A stretch of 64,000 bases of DNA from Pseudomonas kribbensis (GTDB taxonomy: Bacteria > Pseudomonadota > Gammaproteobacteria > Pseudomonadales > Pseudomonadaceae): positions 4,940,501 through 5,004,500 of the forward strand of contig NZ_CP029608.1 of NCBI RefSeq assembly GCF_003352185.1, written 5' to 3'. This document shows positions 54,722 through 63,715 of the stretch, in pieces. The translations under genes were made by a program, and so were the position numbers. Each line of letters opens with the position of its first letter. Within the stretch, counting starts at the first letter, position 1. The notes under the pieces were generated by a model. It saw only the letters and a program-made list of their open reading frames with translations. It had not been told where the DNA came from and made no database searches.

Positions 54722-55816
54722 TCAATCGTCGCTGATGGTGATGTTCGGCATCGCCGGCGACGCCGCTTCCTGCAACACGATCCGCGCGCCGACGTGACGG
54801 GCCAGCTCCTGATAGACCATGGCGATCTGGCTGTCCGGCTCGGAAATCACTGTCGGCTTGCCGCCATCGGCCTGTTCGCGGATCAGCATCGACAGCGGCA
54901 GCGACGCCAGCAGTTCGACGCCGAACTGGGTCGCCAGCTTCTCGCCACCGCCCTCACCGAACAGATGCTCGGCGTGTCCGCAGTTCGAGCAGATGTGCAC
55001 GGCCATGTTTTCCACCACACCCAGCACCGGAATGTTGACCTTGCGGAACATCTCTACGCCTTTGCGCGCATCGAGCAGCGCCAGATCCTGCGGCGTGGTG
55101 ACAATGACGGCGCCCGCCACCGGGACTTTCTGCGCCAGGGTCAGCTGGATGTCGCCGGTGCCTGGCGGCATGTCGATGACCAGATAATCCAGGTCGCCCC
55201 AGGCGGTTTGCGTGACCAGTTGCAGCAGCGCGCCGGAAACCATCGGCCCGCGCCAGACCATCGGCGTGTTGTCGTCGGTCAGGAAGGCCATCGACATCAC
55301 TTCCACGCCATGGGCCTGCAGTGGCACGAACCACTTCTGATCCTTGACCTGCGGACGGGTGCGCTCAGGAATGCCGAACATGATGCCCTGGCTCGGACCG
55401 TAGATATCGGCGTCGAGAATCCCGACCTTCGCGCCTTCGCGGGCCAGTGCCAGCGCCAGGTTGGCGGCGGTTGTGGACTTGCCCACGCCACCCTTGCCGG
55501 ACGCCACGGCGACCACGTTCTTGACGTTGGCCAGCCCCGGAATCTGCGCCTGGGCCTTGTGCGCGGCGATCACGCTGTTGACTTCGACCTTGGCCGACAC
55601 CACGCCGTCGAGGTTTTCGATGGCCAGTTGCAGCAATTGCGCCCAGCCGCTCTTGAACAGACCAGCGGCATAACCGATTTCCAGCTGCACGCTGACGCGG
55701 TCACCGGTGATTTCGATGTTGCGCACGCAACCGGCGCTGACCGGGTCCTGGTTCAGGTAAGGGTCGGTGTATTGGCTGAGGACGGCTTCCACCGCTGCGC
55801 GAGTGACGGCGCTCAT
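54722..55816 (-). CDS. apbC: Iron-sulfur carrier P-loop ATPase ApbC/Mrp
   Basis: 364 residues from ATG 55816. N-terminal DUF59/MIP18-like domain (~1-90), deviant Walker [18 protein letters not shown], Walker B-region [20 protein letters not shown] and the cluster-holding CxxC in [18 protein letters not shown]. It carries and transfers 4Fe-4S clusters in the cytoplasm. Divergent from metG, the usual arrangement in proteobacteria. Confidence 0.95.
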
Positions 55817-55971
55817 GGGCAACTCCGATAACAAGACTGGGAAAAGATGGCGGGTATCCTACCCCTTCTCTCCTCCGGACGGCATGCCCGGCAACGATTT
55901 GCAGGGGTGAAATATCTTTCCCGGCGCTTTATAGTGGCCGACCTCCGTTTCATCAAGTAGCGAAGCCCCAC

Positions 55972-58023
55972 ATGTCCGAACCACGCAAGATTCTCGTCAC
56001 CAGCGCCCTGCCCTACGCCAACGGTTCGATCCACCTTGGCCATATGCTGGAATACATCCAGACCGATATGTGGGTGCGCTTCCAGAAGCATCGCGGCAAT
56101 CAGTGCATTTATGTCTGCGCCGACGACGCCCACGGTTCGGCGATCATGCTGCGCGCGGAAAAGGAAGGCATCACCCCGGAACAACTGATCGCCAACGTCC
56201 AGGCCGAACACAGCGCCGACTTTGCCGAGTTCCTGGTGGACTTCGACAACTTCCACTCCACTCACGCCGAAGAAAACCGTGAGCTGTCGAGCCAGATCTA
56301 CCTGAAGCTGCGTGACGCCGGGCACATCGCCCAACGTTCGATCACCCAGTATTTCGACCCGGAAAAGAAAATGTTCCTGGCCGACCGCTTCATCAAGGGC
56401 ACCTGCCCGAAGTGCGGCACCGAAGACCAGTACGGCGACAACTGCGAAAAATGCGGTGCAACCTACGCACCGACCGACCTGAAGGATCCGAAGTCGGCGA
56501 TCTCCGGCGCCACCCCGGTGCTCAAGGATTCCCAGCACTTCTTCTTCAAGCTGCCTGACTTCCAGCAGATGCTGCAGACCTGGACCCGTAGCGGCACCCT
56601 GCAGGATGCCGTGGCCAACAAGATCGCCGAATGGCTGGACGCCGGCCTGCAACAGTGGGACATCTCCCGCGATGCGCCGTACTTCGGTTTCGAGATCCCG
56701 GGCGAGCCGGGCAAGTACTTCTACGTGTGGCTGGACGCGCCGATCGGCTACATGGCCAGCTTCAAGAACCTGTGCAACCGCACGCCGGAGCTGGACTTCG
56801 ACGCGTTCTGGGGCAAGGACTCCACCGCCGAGCTGTACCACTTCATCGGCAAGGACATCGTCAACTTCCACGCCCTGTTCTGGCCGGCAATGCTCGAAGG
56901 CGCGGGTTTCCGCAAGCCGACCGGGATCAACGTGCATGGCTACCTGACCGTCAACGGTCAGAAGATGTCCAAGTCCCGTGGCACCTTCATCAAGGCCCGT
57001 ACCTACCTGGATCACCTGTCGCCGGAATACCTGCGCTACTACTACGCGGCCAAACTGGGCCGTGGCGTGGACGACCTCGACCTGAACCTCGAAGACTTCG
57101 TGCAGAAGGTCAACTCCGACCTGGTCGGCAAAGTGGTCAACATCGCCAGCCGTTGCGCCGGTTTCATCCAGAAAGGCAACGCCGGTCTGCTGGTGGACAA
57201 CAACGCCGCACCGGAACTGACCGAAGCGTTCCTGGCCGCTGCGCCGAGCATCGCTGACGCTTATGAAGCCCGCGACTTCGCCCGTGCCATGCGCGAAACC
57301 ATGGCCCTGGCCGACCGCGCCAACGCCTGGATCGCCGACAAGGCGCCATGGTCGCTGAACAAGCAGGAAGGCAAGCAGGATGAAGTCCAGGCAGTCTGCG
57401 CCACGGCGATCAACTTGTTCCGCCAGTTGGTGATCTTCCTCAAGCCGGTGCTGCCGGTGCTGGCCGCCGATGCCGAGGCTTTCCTCAACGTCGCCCCGCT
57501 GACCTGGAACGACCACACCACCCTGCTGGCCAACCACCAGTTGAACGAATTCAAACCGTTGATGACCCGCATCGACCCGGTAAAAGTGCAAGCCATGACC
57601 GACGCCTCGAAAGAAGACCTGACCGCCAGCCAGACCGACACCGGCGCCGCCGCGCCTGCCGGCAACGGCGAACTGGCCAAGGATCCGCTGTCGCCGGAAA
57701 TCGACTTCGACACCTTCGCCGCCGTCGACCTGCGCGTGGCGCTGATCGTCAAAGCCGAACACGTTGAAGGTGCGGACAAGCTGCTGCGCCTGACCCTGGA
57801 CATCGGCGACGAACAACGCAACGTATTCTCCGGGATCAAGAGCGCTTACCCGGATCCGTCGAAACTCGACGGTCGTCTGACCATGATGATCGCCAACCTC
57901 AAGCCACGGAAAATGAAGTTCGGCATCTCCGAAGGCATGGTGATGGCGGCCGGCCCTGGCGGTGAAGAAATCTACCTGCTAAGCCCGGACAGCGGCGCCA
58001 AGCCGGGTCAGCGCATCAAGTAA
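55972..58023 (+). CDS. metG: Methionyl-tRNA synthetase
   Basis: 683 residues, the long dimeric form. HIGH-type motif HLGH (residues 21-24), Zn knuckle [18 protein letters not shown] (~145-163), KMSKS at ~331-335 and a C-terminal tRNA-binding OB fold ([16 protein letters not shown], ~580-683) joined by a linker. Charges tRNA-Met. A strong terminator follows. Confidence 0.98.
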
Positions 58024-58040
58024 GGTTCTGCACTGACCGA

Positions 58041-58076
58041 TCCCACAGGCGTACTCCGTGCGCCTGTGGGATTTTT
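58041..58076 (+). terminator. metG terminator
   Basis: TCCCACAGGCG-N9-CGCCTGTGGGA followed by TTTTT, 17 bp after the stop; the arms resemble REP sequence. Confidence 0.92.
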
Positions 58077-58154
58077 CATATCTGGCCCGCCCGTCATGGC
58101 GGCCGGATAATGCCTAATCTTAAGTGACACCCGCCCGCTCTCACCGGCAGAACC

Positions 58155-58724
58155 ATGACCGAACTCGTGCTTACGCTCTTCAGTGCTGCGCTGATCAACA
58201 ACTTCGTGTTGCACTGGCCGCTGGGCGTCGATCCGCTGCTGGCGGGCGAACGCCGTCAGGTGCATGCGCTGGGGCTGGCAACGTTGTGCCTGATGCTGAT
58301 TGTCGGTGTGGCGGGTTACGTGATCTGGCATTGGCTGCTGGTGCCGTTGCAACTGGAATTCCTGCGGCTGTTTGTGTTTCTGCCGCTGAGCGTCCTGCTG
58401 ATCGCGCCGCTGCTTAAGTTGCTGGCGCGTTGGCGACCCGATATGCCATTCGACGGTTTGTGGCCGCTGCTGCTGGGAAATGCCGGTGTGCTGGGGCTGA
58501 CGCTGATCAACGCGCAAGCGGATAAGGGCCTGTTTCATGCAACGGCGCTGAGCCTCGGCGCCGGCCTGGGTTTCTGGCTGGTGCTGAGCCTGTTCAGCGA
58601 TTTGCGCGAGCGCACGGCCGACAACGATATTCCCCTGCCCTTTCGTGGCCTGCCGATCCAGTTGATCGGCGCCGGACTGATGGCGGTGGCTTTTCTCGGA
58701 TTCAGTGGACTGATCAAAACATGA
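58155..58724 (+). CDS. rnfA: RnfA-like membrane subunit lacking the Fe-S cysteines
   Basis: 189 residues, six TM helices. It aligns without gaps to RsxA/RnfA from the start: [18 protein letters not shown] against the usual NNFVL...LGLCP, and [15 protein letters not shown] against TTNCAVLG; the C-terminal [27 protein letters not shown] is also clearly RnfA. Both conserved cysteines that hold the intramembrane 2Fe-2S cluster together with RnfE are replaced, by Asp26 and Ala110. It therefore cannot bind that cluster in the known way. First gene of a six-gene overlapping operon; overlaps rnfB by ATGA. Confidence 0.88.
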
Positions 58725-59935
58725 GTCTGATTCAACGCATCGATGCCCTGTTGCCGCAGACCCAATGCGGCAAGTGCGGCCATCCCGGATGCAAACCCTA
58801 CGCTGCAGGCATCGTCGCCGGCGAGCCGATCAACAAGTGCCCGCCAGGTGGCGATGAAACCATCGCGGCACTGGCCGAACTGCTGAAAATTCCGGTGCTG
58901 GAACTGGATATCAGCCGTGGCAGCGCGCCGCCGCAAGTGGCGTTCATCCGCGAAGCCGAATGCATCGGCTGCACCAAGTGCATTCAGGCCTGCCCAATCG
59001 ATGCCATTGTCGGCGCGGCAAAACTGATGCACACGGTGATCATCGACGAGTGCACCGGTTGCGATCTATGTGTGGCGCCCTGCCCGGTGGATTGCATCGA
59101 GATGCACCCGCTGCCGATCGGAACGCTGCCAGTGGTGGGCGGCCTGGCCAGCAGCCTCGAAGAGCAACAGGCACGCACCAAAAAGCGCGATCACGCCCGG
59201 CAACGTTTCGAACGGCGTAACGCCCGGCTGCAACGCGAAGAACAGCAGAAGCAGGCCGAACGCGAAGCTCGCGCACAACGTGCAGCACAGGTTGAAGTTG
59301 CGTCCGCCACGCTCGATCCGGTGCAGGCAGCGCTGGAACGGGTGCGCGCACAAAAAGCCGCAACCGCCGACGCCGCGCTGAAAAAGGCCAAGATCGACGT
59401 GGCGATGAGCCGCGCCCAGTTGCACAAATCGCTGAAAGCCTTCGGCCATCCGCCGACCTTCGAGCAGCAGTCGCAATTGATCGTGTTGCAGCAGCAATTC
59501 GAAGCCGCCGAACAGGCCCTGGCTAAACTGGAAAGCAGCGCCGTACCTGCGCCGGTCGTGACAGCCCCGGCGAAAGACGCCGATCTGAAACGAGCAAAAA
59601 TCCAGCTGGCGATGCGCCGTGCCGAGCTGAAAAAGGCGCAGACCGCAGAGGCTCCGCCGGAACAGATTGCAGCGCTCGAACAAGCGCTGCGTGACGCCGA
59701 ACAAGCGTTGCACGACGCAGAAGCCGCCAGCGATCAACCGGCCCCCGACCTTGTGCGCGTGGAGAAACGTCCGATCGACAATCAGCTTCGTCAGCTGAAA
59801 ACCGAACTGGCCTACGCGCGCGCCGACCTGAACAAATTGCAGCGACGTGACGGCACGCCGGCCGAAGTCCTCGACAAGGCCCGCACCCGCCTGCAAGAGG
59901 CGGAGCGGCAGGTGGAAGCCCATGTCATCCATTGA
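58721..59935 (+). CDS. rnfB: RnfB-like ferredoxin subunit with RnfC-like helical tail
   Basis: 404 residues, about twice the usual ~190. The normal N-terminal TM helix is missing: it starts [20 protein letters not shown]. Cluster motifs are intact: C16/C19/C24/C40, C81/C84/C87/C91 and C111/C114/C117/C121. From ~145 to the end is a charged helical tail with three ~70-residue repeats ([20 protein letters not shown] ~223-242; [16 protein letters not shown] ~293; [16 protein letters not shown] ~359), the type of tail seen on gammaproteobacterial RnfC. It should act as a soluble or peripheral iron-sulfur electron carrier of the complex. Confidence 0.87.
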
Positions 59936-60905
59936 AACCAGAGACGAACGTCTGCAACAGGCAATGAAGCTGGTTCTGCTGGCGACATTGCCGGGGTTGT
60001 TGGTGTTGTTCTGGTTTTACGGCTGGGGCGTGTTGATCAACCTGATCCTGTCCGTTGCCACAGCCTTGAGCGTCGAAGCCGCCGTGACCTCTCTGCGCCG
60101 ACAGCCGCCGCAAGCGACCCTGACCGATGGCAGCGCGGTGGTCAGCGCCACGCTGCTGGCCATCGCCCTGCCGCCTTATTGCCCTTGGTGGCTGACGGTC
60201 ACGGCGATCGGCTCAGGCCTGCTGTTGGGCAAACACTTGTACGGTGGCGTGGGCCGAAATCCTTTCAACCCGGCCATGCTCGGTTTTGCTCTGGCAATGG
60301 TGATGTTCCCGCAACCGATGACCCATTGGCCGGCCCATGGCATGGATCTGACGGCGGCTTTTGGCCAAGTGTTCAATCTGGGCACGCAGCCGGACGCCTG
60401 GGTTCAGGCCACTGCGCTGGACAGTCTGCGCATCAACAAAAGCCTGACCATGGATGAACTGTTTGCCGGCAATCCGGCATTCGGCCGTTTTGGCGGTCAT
60501 GGTATGGAGTGGGTGAATCTGGCGTTTCTCGCCGGCGGGCTGTTCCTGCTGCAGCGGCGGGTGATCGGCTGGCAGGCGCCGGTCGGCATGCTCGCCAGCC
60601 TGTTTGTCATCAGCCTGCTGTGCTGGAATGGCTCAGGGTCCGACTCCCATGGCTCACCACTGTTTCATCTGCTGAGCGGCGCCACCATGCTTGGCGCGTT
60701 CTTCATCGTCACCGAGCCGGTTTCCGGTGCAAAAAAACCGCTTGCACGCCTGTTGTTCGGCGTGGGCGCCGGCCTGCTGACCTATTTGATTCGTACCTGG
60801 GGCGGTTATCCGGATGGCGTGGCATTTGCGGTGTTGCTGATGAACCTTTGCGTGCCGACACTGGAACGCTTTGCAGCCGCTCGTCAGGCGCAGGTGAAGC
60901 CATGA
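59922..60905 (+). CDS. rnfD: RnfD-like membrane flavoprotein subunit
   Basis: 327 residues from ATG 59922, overlapping rnfB by 14 bp. About eight TM helices; family blocks [53 protein letters not shown] and [15 protein letters not shown]. The FMN-attachment site is kept in VQATALDS, with Thr164 corresponding to the flavinylated Thr of E. coli RsxD. It should carry covalent FMN and be functional as an electron carrier. Overlaps rnfG by ATGA. Confidence 0.9.
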
Positions 60906-61507
60906 ACCGCACGAACAGCCTGATCACCCTGGCCTTGCTGACAACGATAGGCGTCGGTGTGACCTATGTTGTGCAACGCAGCAATGCGCCGCACATCGCT
61001 GCCGAACAGCGCCAGCTCGAAAGTCGCAAACTGCTGGATGTGCTTTCAGTCGATGCCTACGACAATCAGCCTCTGGAACAACCTCTGGCGCTGGCCGACG
61101 TCAATCTGAGCCACAGCGAGTTGCTGGGTGGTTATCAGGCGACCAAGGCCGGCCAACCGGTGGCGGTGCTGCTGCGCACCCGGACCGAGGGCTATGCGGG
61201 TCCCATCGAGTTGCTGATTGCCATCGATGCCAATGGCCGATTGCTCGGCGTGAAAACCCTGGAGCAAACTGAAACACCGGCGCTGGGCGGGCACATCGGC
61301 GACTGGCCGAACACCTGGCTGCAGGCGTTTATCGGCAAATCCGGCAGCCAACCGACCGATGCCGGATGGGCCCTGAAAAAGGATCAGGGGCAATTCGACC
61401 AGATCGCTGGCGCAACCATCACGTCCCGTGCGGCCATCAACGCCATTCACGATGCCCTGCGTTATTTCGATGATCACCGGACGACCCTGCTCGGGAGCGC
61501 GCCATGA
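60902..61507 (+). CDS. rnfG: RnfG-like periplasmic flavoprotein subunit
   Basis: 201 residues. One N-terminal TM (ITLALLTTIGVGVTYVV), then a periplasmic FMN domain. The flavinylation motif is AGATITS with Thr172; the usual Ser/Thr at the first position is Ala, but the modified Thr and the following TITS are kept. EQTETPALGGHIGDW is the conserved RnfG block. Flavinylation needs an ApbE transferase, which is not encoded in this window. Overlaps rnfE by ATGA. Confidence 0.9.
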   Translation: MNRTNSLITLALLTTIGVGVTYVVQRSNAPHIAAEQRQLESRKLLDVLSVDAYDNQPLEQPLALADVNLSHSELLGGYQATKAGQPVAVLLRTRTEGYAGPIELLIAIDANGRLLGVKTLEQTETPALGGHIGDWPNTWLQAFIGKSGSQPTDAGWALKKDQGQFDQIAGATITSRAAINAIHDALRYFDDHRTTLLGSAP

Positions 61508-62085
61508 ACACGTCAGCGACGCTGTCGAACTCAATGATGCTGGCGCTGTTGATCGGCGCCACTGACTCCGTGGCCGGTGCGCTGGCGATTGTGCTGATGT
61601 TCGCTGTTGTGGTGAGCCTGTACGGCGTGTGCATGGCACCGCTGCGGGCACGACTGAGCTCCGAGAGCCTGTTACCGGTCAGCCTGGTACTGGCCGCGAC
61701 GCTGACGGGGTGCGCCGATATTCTGTTGCAACGCAGCGCTGTTCAATGGCATCAACTGGTCAGCCTTTACGCCGGCCTGATCGGTTTGCAGTGCGTCATA
61801 TTCGAACACAATGGATTCTTTCGACTGCCAGCCCGAGGACGTCTGAAACTGTGCGGCTTGTTCATCGCACTGATGACCGTGCTGGCGGTGTTGCGCGAGC
61901 TGCTCGGTCAGGGCAGCATCGGCCATCACCTGTCGGATCACTGGCAAGGTTTGATTCTGTTCGGCGACGGCCTGCATTTCGCGACGCTGGCTGCCGGCGC
62001 CTTCATATTGCTGGGGCTGTTGCTCGCCGCCCGTCAGGCCTGGACTCGCTCCGCCGCCCCTCCCGAGGAAACGCATCACCCATGA
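61504..62085 (+). CDS. rnfE: RnfE-like membrane subunit, divergent
   Basis: 193 residues, six TM helices. It is recognised by position and by the LRELLGQGSIG...F...PGAF-like end (AAGAFILLGLLLAARQAW), but it is much more diverged than the others. The first cluster cysteine (LLGLCP in typical RnfE) is lost in LLIGATDSV; the second seems kept as Cys97 in GLIGLQCVIFE. With RnfA lacking both cysteines, a standard 2Fe-2S site cannot form. It overlaps nth by ATGA. Confidence 0.8.
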   Translation: MNTSATLSNSMMLALLIGATDSVAGALAIVLMFAVVVSLYGVCMAPLRARLSSESLLPVSLVLAATLTGCADILLQRSAVQWHQLVSLYAGLIGLQCVIFEHNGFFRLPARGRLKLCGLFIALMTVLAVLRELLGQGSIGHHLSDHWQGLILFGDGLHFATLAAGAFILLGLLLAARQAWTRSAAPPEETHHP

Positions 62086-62720
62086 ATGCCGCAAAACGTC
62101 TGGAGATCTTCCGCCGGTTTCACGAGGACAATCCCGAACCCAAGACCGAACTCGCCTACTCTTCGCCTTTCGAATTGTTGATCGCGGTGATTCTGTCCGC
62201 GCAATCAACTGATGTCGGCGTAAACAAGGCGACGGCAAAGCTTTACCCGGTGGCCAACACACCGGCCGCCATTCATGCCTTGGGCGTCGAAGGTCTGTCC
62301 GAGTACATCAAGACTATCGGCCTCTACAACAGCAAGGCCAAAAACGTGATCGAAACCTGTCGCATGCTGGTCGAGCTGCACAATGGTGAAGTCCCGCAGA
62401 CGCGCGAAGAGCTGGAGGCTTTGCCCGGCGTAGGTCGCAAGACCGCCAACGTCGTGCTCAATACCGCGTTCCGACAGTTGACCATGGCGGTGGACACCCA
62501 CATTTTCCGGGTCAGCAACCGCACCGGCATTGCCCCTGGCAAGAATGTGGTCGAAGTGGAAAACAAACTGATGAAGTTTGTGCCAAAGCAATACCTGCTC
62601 GACTCACACCACTGGCTCATTCTTCACGGGCGCTACGTGTGCCTGGCCCGCAAGCCACGGTGCGGCAGCTGTCGGATCGAAGACTTGTGCGAATACAAGG
62701 CCAAAACTTCGGACGATTGA
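62082..62720 (+). CDS. nth: Endonuclease III
   Basis: 212 residues. HhH motif LPGVGRKTANVVL with catalytic Lys, catalytic Asp in VDTHIFRVSNR, and the 4Fe-4S loop CLARKPRCGSCRIEDLC (C-x6-C-x2-C-x5-C). Removes oxidised pyrimidines from DNA. It is the last gene of the rnf operon, co-translated with rnfE; the rnf-nth link is widespread in gammaproteobacteria. Confidence 0.97.
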   Translation: MNAAKRLEIFRRFHEDNPEPKTELAYSSPFELLIAVILSAQSTDVGVNKATAKLYPVANTPAAIHALGVEGLSEYIKTIGLYNSKAKNVIETCRMLVELHNGEVPQTREELEALPGVGRKTANVVLNTAFRQLTMAVDTHIFRVSNRTGIAPGKNVVEVENKLMKFVPKQYLLDSHHWLILHGRYVCLARKPRCGSCRIEDLCEYKAKTSDD

Positions 62721-62827
62721 GCGTCTATTGGAATTATTGATATTGCGATTGAAAAAATCTTTTTTACGATCTGCTGGAATGTCGATATAAGGAGCGCCAA
62801 AGGCAGTCTTAGCCTGGAGTTAACCTT

Positions 62828-63001
62828 ATGAGCACCAGCAAAGAGCAAGTGGACGTAGAAGACGATTTCGTCGCGGATGCGGACGACGAACCGGTGGTTG
62901 AGGTCGCCAAGACCAACCTGAGCAAACGCCGGACCATCGATAACATGCTTGAGGAACGCCGACTGCAAAAGCAATTGGCCGATTACGACTTTGATCTCTG
63001 A
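62828..63001 (+). CDS. Small acidic PA3496-like protein
   Basis: 57 residues: STSKEQVDVEDDFVADADDE, a Val/Lys middle, then the basic helical KRRTIDNMLEERRLQKQLAD. It matches the PA3496 family located after nth in pseudomonads; its function is unknown, though an envelope-integrity role has been suggested by annotation. It lacks a signal peptide. A terminator follows 6 bp after the stop. AAGGAGCG upstream at ~62789 is too far for the ATG, and GGAGTTAACCTT fits better. Confidence 0.75.
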   Translation: MSTSKEQVDVEDDFVADADDEPVVEVAKTNLSKRRTIDNMLEERRLQKQLADYDFDL

Positions 63002-63007
63002 CATTTA

Positions 63008-63032
63008 AAAGCCTCCGCAACGGAGGCTTTTT
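63008..63032 (+). terminator. Terminator after the PA3496-like gene
   Basis: AAAGCCTCCG-CAA-CGGAGGCTTT plus TT, a strong intrinsic terminator. Confidence 0.92.
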
Positions 63033-63088
63033 CGTTTCTGCTGCAAGCTGATGCCGATCTGCCCATGATCCGTCAGCATCTGAAGCGG

Positions 63089-63715
63089 TCAGACCAGACC
63101 ATTGCGCTGGGCCAGCTCGATCAGATCCACCAGCGAACGCGCGTTGAGCTTCAACAGCAACCGTGTCTTGTAGGTGCTGACGGTCTTGTTGCTGAGAAAC
63201 ATGCCATCGGCGATTTCCTTGTTGGTCTTGCCGCGTGCCAGCTGCTGCAACACCATCATCTCGCGCCCGGAAAGACGATCGACCATATCGGCTTCACTGG
63301 CGTTTCCCAGGCTGGTGCGTACGGTGTGCAACGCCTGATTCGGAAAATAACTGTACCCGGACAGCACAGCCTTGATAGCACTGAGCAGTTCGGTCAAATC
63401 CTGTTGTTTACAGACATATCCTGCTGCCCCCGACTGCATGCAACGCATGGAGAAATGCCCCGGAGCCTGGGATGTCAGTACCAGCACTTTCAAGGGCATC
63501 GCGCTGGTCGTAAGTCGCGCAATCACTTCCAGACCGTCAAGTTTCGGTATACCGATATCCAGAATGACAATATCGGGCATCTGGTCGCGAGCCAGTTGTA
63601 AGGCATCCACTCCGTTATCCGTTTCTGCAATGACTTCGTAGCCATGACGCTCCATCAGCATACGCACCGCAAGACGAATGACAGGATGATCATCCACGAT
63701 CAGCACTTTATTCAT
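63089..63715 (-). CDS. NarL/LuxR-family response regulator
   Basis: 208 residues from ATG 63715. Receiver: VLIVDDHPVIRLAVRMLMER, phospho-Asp in VILDIGIPKLDG, Lys in YVCKQQDLTE. LuxR HTH: LSGREMMVLQQLARGKTNKEIADGMFLSNKTVSTYKTRLL, split by normal linker. It resembles the RocA1/BvgA-like fimbrial regulators of Pseudomonas. No partner kinase is within the window, so it may be an orphan or be paired with a gene beyond 64 kb. Confidence 0.88.
   Translation of the reverse strand: MNKVLIVDDHPVIRLAVRMLMERHGYEVIAETDNGVDALQLARDQMPDIVILDIGIPKLDGLEVIARLTTSAMPLKVLVLTSQAPGHFSMRCMQSGAAGYVCKQQDLTELLSAIKAVLSGYSYFPNQALHTVRTSLGNASEADMVDRLSGREMMVLQQLARGKTNKEIADGMFLSNKTVSTYKTRLLLKLNARSLVDLIELAQRNGLV

Follow-up and report, generated by a model that had tools for sequence, protein, structure and literature searches.

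In the canonical Rnf complex, electrons are carried from RnfB over the [2Fe-2S] cluster of RnfA and RnfE, the flavin mononucleotide (FMN) of RnfG, the FMN of RnfD and riboflavin to RnfC and NAD (PMC12174285; papers are cited by PubMed Central number). What, then, can an rnf locus still do when rnfC is missing? The question is raised by a stretch of 64,000 nucleotides from Pseudomonas kribbensis (contig NZ_CP029608.1, positions 4,940,501 to 5,004,500), hereafter the window, in which five plus-strand genes between metG and nth match RnfA, RnfB, RnfD, RnfG and RnfE by NCBIfam, Pfam and the solved Rnf structures. Here "variant" refers to an rnf locus lacking rnfC, and "complete" to one with rnfC beside rnfA. 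As argued below, the variant is somewhat better than evenly likely to be a derived, non-pumping, NADH-independent descendant of Rnf (Rsx), in which RnfD and RnfG would form a membrane flavin relay on a scaffold of RnfA and RnfE.

The rnfC-less locus and its distribution

The genes rnfA-B-D-G-E-nth overlap at each junction, as the first-pass annotation of the window had read them, successively by 4, 14, 4, 4 and 4 nucleotides. Its claim that rnfC has no room here is borne out, and rnfC is absent from the rest of the genome as well. In the single contig of 6.32 Mb, the RnfC model TIGR01945 (cut-off 246 bits) matched only twice, at 57 and 26 bits, and the single PF01512 match, which lies away from the rnf locus and overlaps the 57-bit stretch, is taken here to be NuoF of complex I. 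Genome-wide, PF02508 is matched only by rnfA and rnfE, which leaves neither a second Rnf nor an Nqr; PF03116 is matched only by rnfD, Nqr membrane subunits were not found, and PF04205 (FMN_bind) is matched only by rnfG. A detached rnfC or a second rnf in this genome, an outcome named in advance as refuting a modified complex, is ruled out by the TIGR01945, PF01512, PF02508 and PF03116 searches, and chance or sequencing error by 112 further genomes with an rnfC-less locus. RnfB, RnfD and RnfG pass the cut-offs of their family models, and RnfA (119 of 229 bits) and RnfE (47 of 213 bits) are matched far under theirs, in line with drift of both proteins.

The genus sample comprises 199 genomes; an RnfA-type match was obtained in 140 of them and an RnfC over cut-off in 30. 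When match lists and coordinates were read together, 113 genomes (the window's included) were found to have an rnfC-less locus, 24 rnfC beside rnfA, three Nqr only (G001, G147 and G164) and 59 none of these. All 112 other variant loci were fetched; rnfA is present in 112, rnfD, rnfG and nth in 111 each, rnfE and metG in 110 each, rnfB in 96 and rnfC in 0. One locus (L144) is cut at a contig end, rnfE was undetected in another (L177), and the frameshifts of a third (L081) are probably an assembly error, because they hit metG and nth too.

Named loci were taken from the best 80 of 592 relatives, and the nearest among them by RnfD is that of Pseudomonas bananamidigenes (93% identity). In none of the 44 named loci without rnfC does either RnfA or RnfE pass a two-motif Cys test; the test is passed by 33 (RnfA) and 35 (RnfE) of the 36 with rnfC, the misses being an rnfA at the locus edge (L221), a split rnfA (L253), a split rnfE (L226) and an absent rnfA (L255). 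Carriers of the variant include P. fluorescens, P. chlororaphis, P. protegens, P. otitidis, P. subflava and Stutzerimonas urumqiensis. All variants fall together in a single clade inside Pseudomonadaceae, with a Shimodaira-Hasegawa-like approximate likelihood ratio test (SH-aLRT) support of 100 both in the RnfA+D+G tree (118 rows, L081 and L144 omitted) and in the RnfD tree with outgroups (95 rows). Both trees come from quick searches and carry no bootstrap values; among the complete loci, L229 stands closest to the clade (support 92). The variant state is neither local nor recent in Pseudomonas. No report of a Pseudomonas Rnf without RnfC was found in the literature by title and the start of the abstract, subscription papers being outside the scope of this search. 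In the RnfD comparison, the records Pantoea sp. Ap-967 (L246), P. syringae PA-6-8C (L218) and P. viridiflava p13.H9 (L250) fall in other Pseudomonas clades, and their names may be wrong.

RnfC acting in trans was considered as a general answer and rejected, as a further RnfC over cut-off occurs in just 6 of the 113 variant genomes. One of the six (G022) has, besides its variant locus (L140), a complete second rnfABCDGE (L279), accompanied by its own apbE at a distance of about 8 kb. Three of the other five were looked at; in each, rnfC and rnfD form an isolated pair next to an apbE of their own, with A, B, G and E missing (L270, L271 and L272; Table 1); these pairs are another half-Rnf of different design.

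Lost and retained parts of the complex

Residues were counted in 39 complete, up to 132 rnfB-bearing variant and 24 rnfB-less variant rows, some of the named and other rows appearing to be the same genome. One of the four ligand Cys of the A/E [2Fe-2S] cluster is left in the window (RnfE Cys97), the rest being replaced by Asp26 and Ala110 in RnfA and Ala14 in RnfE. This loss is common to all aligned variant rows: no row has a ligand Cys at either RnfA position or at the first RnfE position, and the second RnfE ligand is kept in 125 of 130 rnfB-bearing and 23 of 24 rnfB-less rows. The ligand columns bear out what had been read from the window, namely that both cysteines of RnfA and the first of RnfE were gone. 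The RnfE ion pair Arg67/acid115 (Acetobacterium woodii numbering) is likewise absent from the window, which has Leu56 and Gly104 instead (Asn103 by the HMMER alignment); the acid is kept in 13 of 130 rnfB-bearing and 0 of 24 rnfB-less variants, and the Arg in 52 of 130 and 7 of 24, respectively. Rnf activity and growth of A. woodii are lost on removal of the A/E cysteines, the FMN Thr of RnfG, or the riboflavin Asn or Asp, and pumping was argued in that work to be the task of RnfA and RnfE, with RnfD a carrier of electrons only (PMC11889175).

Two ideas about these changes were rejected. RnfA Asp26 was suspected as an RnfB contact, Asp being common with RnfB and rare without it (3 of 16); its loss is put down to lineage erosion, because, within the same clade, Asp is also gone from 4 of 9 members that do have RnfB. 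An obligatory link from loss of the RnfC NADH domain to loss of the A/E Cys fails on two genomes of other families with an RnfB-RnfC-ferredoxin fusion, which kept the Cys.

The FMN sites of RnfD and RnfG are retained. The FMN-attachment threonines noted in the window, Thr164 of RnfD and Thr172 of RnfG, are near-universal in the 112 variant rows (Thr 111 and Ser 1 in RnfD, Thr 110 and Ser 2 in RnfG). When RnfD was aligned to 8ahx_D, 7zc6_D and 9eri_D, Asn116, equivalent to the riboflavin Asn124 of Clostridium tetanomorphum, was found to be kept in 194 of 194 rows. Position 265 is Glu in 131/131 rnfB-bearing and 24/24 rnfB-less variants and Asp in 39/39 complete loci; its counterpart in C. tetanomorphum is Asp248 (numbered by counting along the alignment), described as a strictly conserved residue at the riboflavin and possible Na+ site (PMC9588780). 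Lost A/E ligands and ion pair on the one side and kept RnfD and RnfG residues on the other suggest that the pump half has been largely dismantled and the electron-carrying half kept, with one fixed riboflavin-site substitution.

The flavin transferase gene apbE follows the same pattern. Every one of the 140 genomes with an RnfA-type match (113 variant, 24 complete and 3 with Nqr alone) has ApbE, as against 10 of the 59 that lack such a match (by-eye comparison of the lists; Fisher p 5.5e-37). In the three of these ten that were looked at, ApbE is a distant paralog (162-181 bits), encoded next to a large and presumably PepSY-like protein. The window genome has a single ApbE, one FMN_bind protein (RnfG) and one PF03116 protein (RnfD); its ApbE is, as we read the gene names, the lipoprotein-like gene adjoining sthA. 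In two Nqr-bearing genomes the nqr genes, then apbE and then sthA stand at the same place, and in six variant genomes that were fetched, half of them rnfB-less, apbE and sthA remain but nqr is missing. A seventh (L271) has apbE beside sthA without nqr, with the rnfC-rnfD pair adjoining. In L186 (Table 1), the juxtaposition of apbE and sthA resembles what deletion of an nqr operon would leave behind. By this gene order nqr appears to have been removed and apbE retained, and ApbE may have been kept to flavinylate RnfG and RnfD, since these are its only recognisable substrates (FMN_bind, PF03116) in the genome.

RnfB has changed in another way. In the complete Pseudomonas loci, of which seven (L179-L185) were fetched from the 24 complete-rnf genomes in the genus sample, a short RnfB is accompanied by a long RnfC ending in a charged repeat tail, and the RnfB membrane helix is present in the four loci printed. 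The window RnfB has no such helix; its three-cluster head is followed by a tail of about 260 residues, which matches the canonical RnfC tail with up to 55% identity over 188 residues (E 3e-45), or 59% over 116 residues (E 2e-35) with low-complexity filtering; against canonical RnfB its best E is 0.65, which is no match. Its final 60 residues score 54.7 bits against the L181 RnfC and up to 64.7 bits against others, and 200 shuffles against L181 reached at most 21.6 bits. An in-frame rnfB-rnfC deletion that fused the two genes is the simplest reading of these matches and probably the cause of the rnfC loss. The RnfC-derived tail is shorter in many relatives (RnfB of 225 to 410 residues, omitting the broken L081, the cut L144 and the misplaced starts of L141 and L161), and a narrow pattern of its C-end is matched by 31 of 96 variant RnfB. 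The 12-Cys cluster motif, noted at the outset for the window RnfB, is present there and in all 96 variant RnfB.

rnfB itself is absent from 16 sampled variant genomes, leaving A-D-G-E; rnfA there directly meets rnfD, with a 4-nucleotide overlap in ten. Relocation of the gene was rejected, as RnfB over cut-off was not found in any of the 16 genomes. The rnfB-less state requires five changes on the RnfA+D+G tree, four of them forced by well-supported branches, and is also seen in named loci including those of P. entomophila and P. mosselii. Because rnfB was lost repeatedly while A-D-G-E stayed, RnfB is not essential to the proposed relay.

The features are collected in Table 1. The hairpin after metG suggests that the rnf genes are probably transcribed separately from metG. 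An Rfam scan of window positions 55800-64000 gave zero matches.

Table 1. Features at the rnf locus of the window (window positions) and at other loci (positions after the locus handle).
Feature	Position	Strand	Description and evidence
Intrinsic-terminator-like hairpin, metG/rnfA gap	58039..58073	+	Pattern scan: 16-pair stem, then T-run; consensus match only
rnfA	58155..58724	+	189 amino acids; Asp26 and Ala110 at cluster ligand positions; best match PDB 7zc6_A, E 1e-27; PF02508
rnfB	58721..59935	+	404 amino acids; three-cluster head and in-frame RnfC C-terminal tail, without N-terminal membrane helix; TIGR01944 over cut-off
rnfD	59922..60905	+	327 amino acids; FMN Thr164, riboflavin Asn116, Glu265 for riboflavin Asp; TIGR01946 360 bits, over cut-off
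rnfG	60902..61507	+	201 amino acids; FMN_bind domain, flavinylation Thr172; TIGR01947, PF04205
rnfE	61504..62085	+	193 amino acids; shortened N-terminus, Ala14 for first ligand Cys; Cys97 and Cys70 kept; PF02508; 8ahx_E, E 2.6e-7
nth (endonuclease III)	62082..62720	+	Conserved neighbour outside the complex; TIGR01083 over cut-off
apbE adjoining sthA	L186:8741-11250		Possible scar of a deleted nqr operon
rnfC-rnfD pair beside apbE	L270:8092-11700		Without A, B, G, E
rnfC-rnfD pair beside apbE	L271:7722-11866		Without A, B, G, E
rnfC-rnfD pair beside apbE	L272:267-3999		Without A, B, G, E
RnfB-RnfC ferredoxin fusion	L281:7249-8220	-	Other gammaproteobacterial family
RnfB-RnfC ferredoxin fusion	L284:4650-5585	+	Other gammaproteobacterial family
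RnfB-RnfC ferredoxin fusion	L287:6966-7976	-	Other gammaproteobacterial family
Anchor-less RnfB-RnfC-ferredoxin fusion	L288:7882-8799	+	Alone between metG and nth; genome (G289) without RnfD match; no A, D, G, E

Selection, the putative relay and its rivals

The ratio of nonsynonymous to synonymous substitution rates (dN/dS) was calculated from sister pairs as the sum of dN over the sum of dS, using 18 variant pairs plus 4 rnfB-less pairs (dS 0.05-1.0; 17-18 used per gene) and, for complete loci, 2 pairs in the variant run (dS 0.05-1.0) and 7 pairs in a second run (dS 0.05-1.2; 5-6 used per gene); some genes of some pairs were left out for dS outside these limits. The variant and complete ratios are 0.20 vs 0.03 for RnfA, 0.26 vs 0.07 for RnfE, 0.12 vs 0.07 for RnfD, 0.18 vs 0.10 for RnfG, 0.11 vs 0.05 for RnfB and 0.03 vs 0.05 for nth, and the four rnfB-less pairs give 0.24 (A), 0.15 (D), 0.17 (G) and 0.23 (E). 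Every subunit is under purifying selection, with the largest relaxation in RnfA and RnfE, the former cluster holders. Columns at least 95% identical in 110 to 112 variant rows number 116 in RnfD, 35 in RnfG, 31 in RnfA and 9 in RnfE. An earlier all-pairs run gave 0.19 (variant) and 0.18 (complete) for rnfD, 0.26 and 0.32 for rnfG and 0.10 for the RnfB head; it includes saturated pairs and gave higher ratios in all groups, and the sister pairs are relied on instead. Neutral evolution, named beforehand as refuting a modified complex, did not occur, all ratios being well below 1. The first-pass statement that the genes show no decay stands only roughly for RnfD, RnfG and RnfB, and has to be given up for RnfA and RnfE, on which selection, still purifying, is clearly weakened.

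With RnfC and the A/E cluster gone, the canonical route would be cut at both ends, at its entry to FMN-G via RnfA and RnfE and at its exit via RnfC; the absence of an NADH site and the broken A/E path had both been claimed from the window and agree with the gene and residue losses. The carriers predicted to remain, FMN-G, FMN-D and riboflavin, would make up a single membrane crossing. In the proposed course of events, rnfC would have been lost by the in-frame rnfB-rnfC deletion, ApbE would flavinylate RnfG and RnfD, and both FMNs together with the RnfD riboflavin would form a single-pass flavin wire in the RnfA/RnfE scaffold. A cytoplasmic donor would reduce the RnfD riboflavin; where RnfB is present it may play this part, docking at the former RnfD contact of the RnfC ferredoxin domain, and without RnfB the donor might be another ferredoxin, a flavodoxin or a membrane donor. 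Electrons would then pass from the RnfD riboflavin to FMN-D, FMN-G and a periplasmic acceptor, and no ion would be pumped. Donor, acceptor and direction are guesses, unlike the retention of the flavin core; one-way flow from RnfD over RnfG to a periplasmic acceptor is the most economical model, patterned on the half-pathways described in PMC8238504. The suggestion of a modified complex, perhaps a membrane flavin relay, is favoured by the constraint on RnfD and RnfG, by apbE in 113 of 113 variant genomes and by the loss of the parts for NADH and [2Fe-2S]; a requirement for RnfB in the new route is not supported, given the several rnfB losses with A-D-G-E retained.

Several observations weigh against the relay. 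The ratios of RnfA and RnfE are about 7 and 4 times, and those of RnfD, RnfG and RnfB about twice, the complete ones, so that partial erosion is real; many lineages can also do without the complex, 59 of the 199 genomes of the genus having no RnfA-type match. The conservation of RnfE Cys97 (107 of 111 variants) and Cys70 (101 of 111) is without explanation, and all 12 RnfB cluster Cys are kept (96 of 96) though the canonical acceptor is gone. Flavinylation is predicted from the conserved sites, and the profile counts and the ApbE Fisher test ignore phylogeny. No known quinol entry is seen either: the window RnfD is no longer than other RnfD, and the N-terminal quinone-site helices of NqrB are described as not present in RnfD (PMC12174285).

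The same facts could be taken to mean that the locus is a slowly eroding Rsx remnant, whose useful function left with rnfC and whose remainder is lost piecemeal. The stepwise loss of RnfC, the A/E ligands and then RnfB, the genomes without any RnfA-type match, the relaxation of RnfA and RnfE with the twofold higher ratios of the others, and the shortened RnfC-derived tail all fit such erosion. Nevertheless, we consider it unlikely, as the ratios of RnfD (0.12), RnfG (0.18) and all other subunits are well below 1, rnfA, rnfD and rnfG are intact in 110 of the 112 variant loci (all but L144, at its contig end, and L081, with metG and nth also broken), the Asp-to-Glu change of RnfD is fixed, apbE is retained, and the variants form one clade across the family. 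The operon might also consist of two parts that exchange no electrons, a soluble RnfB acting as an independent Fe-S reductase and A-D-G-E as a separate membrane flavoprotein. Reduction of SoxR has been proposed for Rsx and would be an example of a target for such an RnfB. The missing RnfB anchor, the loss of its A/E partner site, the dN/dS of the RnfB head in the all-pairs run (0.10), the repeated loss of RnfB without loss of A-D-G-E and the anchor-less RnfB-type fusion standing alone in L288 of another family agree with this division. It is nonetheless rather improbable: rnfB overlaps rnfA by 4 nucleotides in 92 of 96 loci and rnfD by 14 nucleotides in 81 of 95, and RnfB bears the RnfC tail, whose counterpart in Azotobacter vinelandii, a long C-terminal helix of RnfC with a function not understood, contacts RnfB and RnfH in the complex (PMC12174285).

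An outward relay from RnfD to RnfG is also preferred to an inward one, in which a periplasmic donor would reduce FMN-G and electrons would pass through RnfD to RnfB and cytoplasmic acceptors. Inward flow has the same direction as the D-G half in forward Rnf (PMC9588780, PMC12174285), and the kept RnfB clusters would find a use in it; the neighbouring genes, metG and nth, give no hint of a donor in the periplasm, however, and the core is retained in rnfB-less genomes, which leaves this reading very little probability.

Related systems and biological meaning

The variant shares with Rnf/Rsx (RnfABCDGE; structures 8ahx, from A. vinelandii according to PMC12174285, 7zc6 and 9eri) homologues of A, B, D, G and E, the FMN threonines of RnfD and RnfG, an ApbE in the genome and, with complete rnf of Pseudomonas, the metG-rnf-nth locus and gene order. 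It differs in lacking RnfC, the NADH/FMN-C site, the RnfB anchor and three of the four A/E Cys, in the fusion of RnfB to the RnfC tail, in Glu for the riboflavin Asp of RnfD and, in 16 sampled genomes, in the loss of RnfB as well. The NQR/RNF-like half-pathways, described mainly from Actinobacteria and the candidate phyla radiation, likewise use partial machinery, in which electrons are proposed to flow one way via an NqrB/RnfD-type protein and to end on an FMN domain outside the cytosol, and have an NqrF-type NAD domain fused to NqrB/RnfD (Meheust et al. 2021, PMC8238504). An FMN_bind partner (RnfG, PF04205) and ApbE are present in the window genome too, whereas the scan of its RnfD gave PF03116 only, with no NqrF-type PF00175 domain, and RnfA and RnfE are retained. 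With Na+/H+-NQR the variant has in common a homologous membrane core, and the apbE beside sthA adjoins nqr in Nqr-bearing relatives; nqr is absent from the window genome, and no NAD-binding or quinone-site part is present.

In 185 genomes of the class, RnfD was found over cut-off in 113 and RnfC in 107. Besides the window, five genomes with an apparent RnfD and no RnfC were examined, one of them (G308) selected by a low RnfD score. G351 breaks off at a contig edge, and G306 has a weak full-length RnfC. In G291, G333 and G308, RnfB is joined to RnfC's two-cluster ferredoxin domain and the NAD/FMN domain is gone. The RnfB anchor and the A/E ligand Cys are kept in L281 and L284 (G291 and G333), the first RnfA ligand is His in L287 (G308), and an Rnf of this fusion type may pump without NADH. 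As in Pseudomonas, the fusions of L281, L284, L287 and L288 lost the NAD/FMN domain by fusion with RnfB, but they kept the RnfC two-cluster ferredoxin domain. The Pseudomonas variant state is rare elsewhere in the class sample, and loss of the NADH domain via RnfB fusion happened more than once.

The family models that match these genes are those of RnfABCDGE/Rsx, a name implying an NADH-linked ion pump that is impossible in this form. RnfADGE may tentatively be regarded, at somewhat less than even probability, as a distinct class of conduit without NADH, [2Fe-2S] cluster or pumping, a one-way flavin wire linking the cytoplasmic side and the periplasm, with a riboflavin site retuned from Asp to Glu, present in much of Pseudomonas and in some lineages without the Fe-S subunit. 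If so, the locus would offer a natural Asp-to-Glu variant at a debated riboflavin/Na+ residue and a reason for apbE having outlived the nqr operon. If the relay works, it would be a natural dissection of Rnf into a pump (RnfA and RnfE with their cluster) and an electron carrier (RnfD and RnfG), and a flavin-only transmembrane route would become testable in ordinary plant- and soil-associated Pseudomonas.

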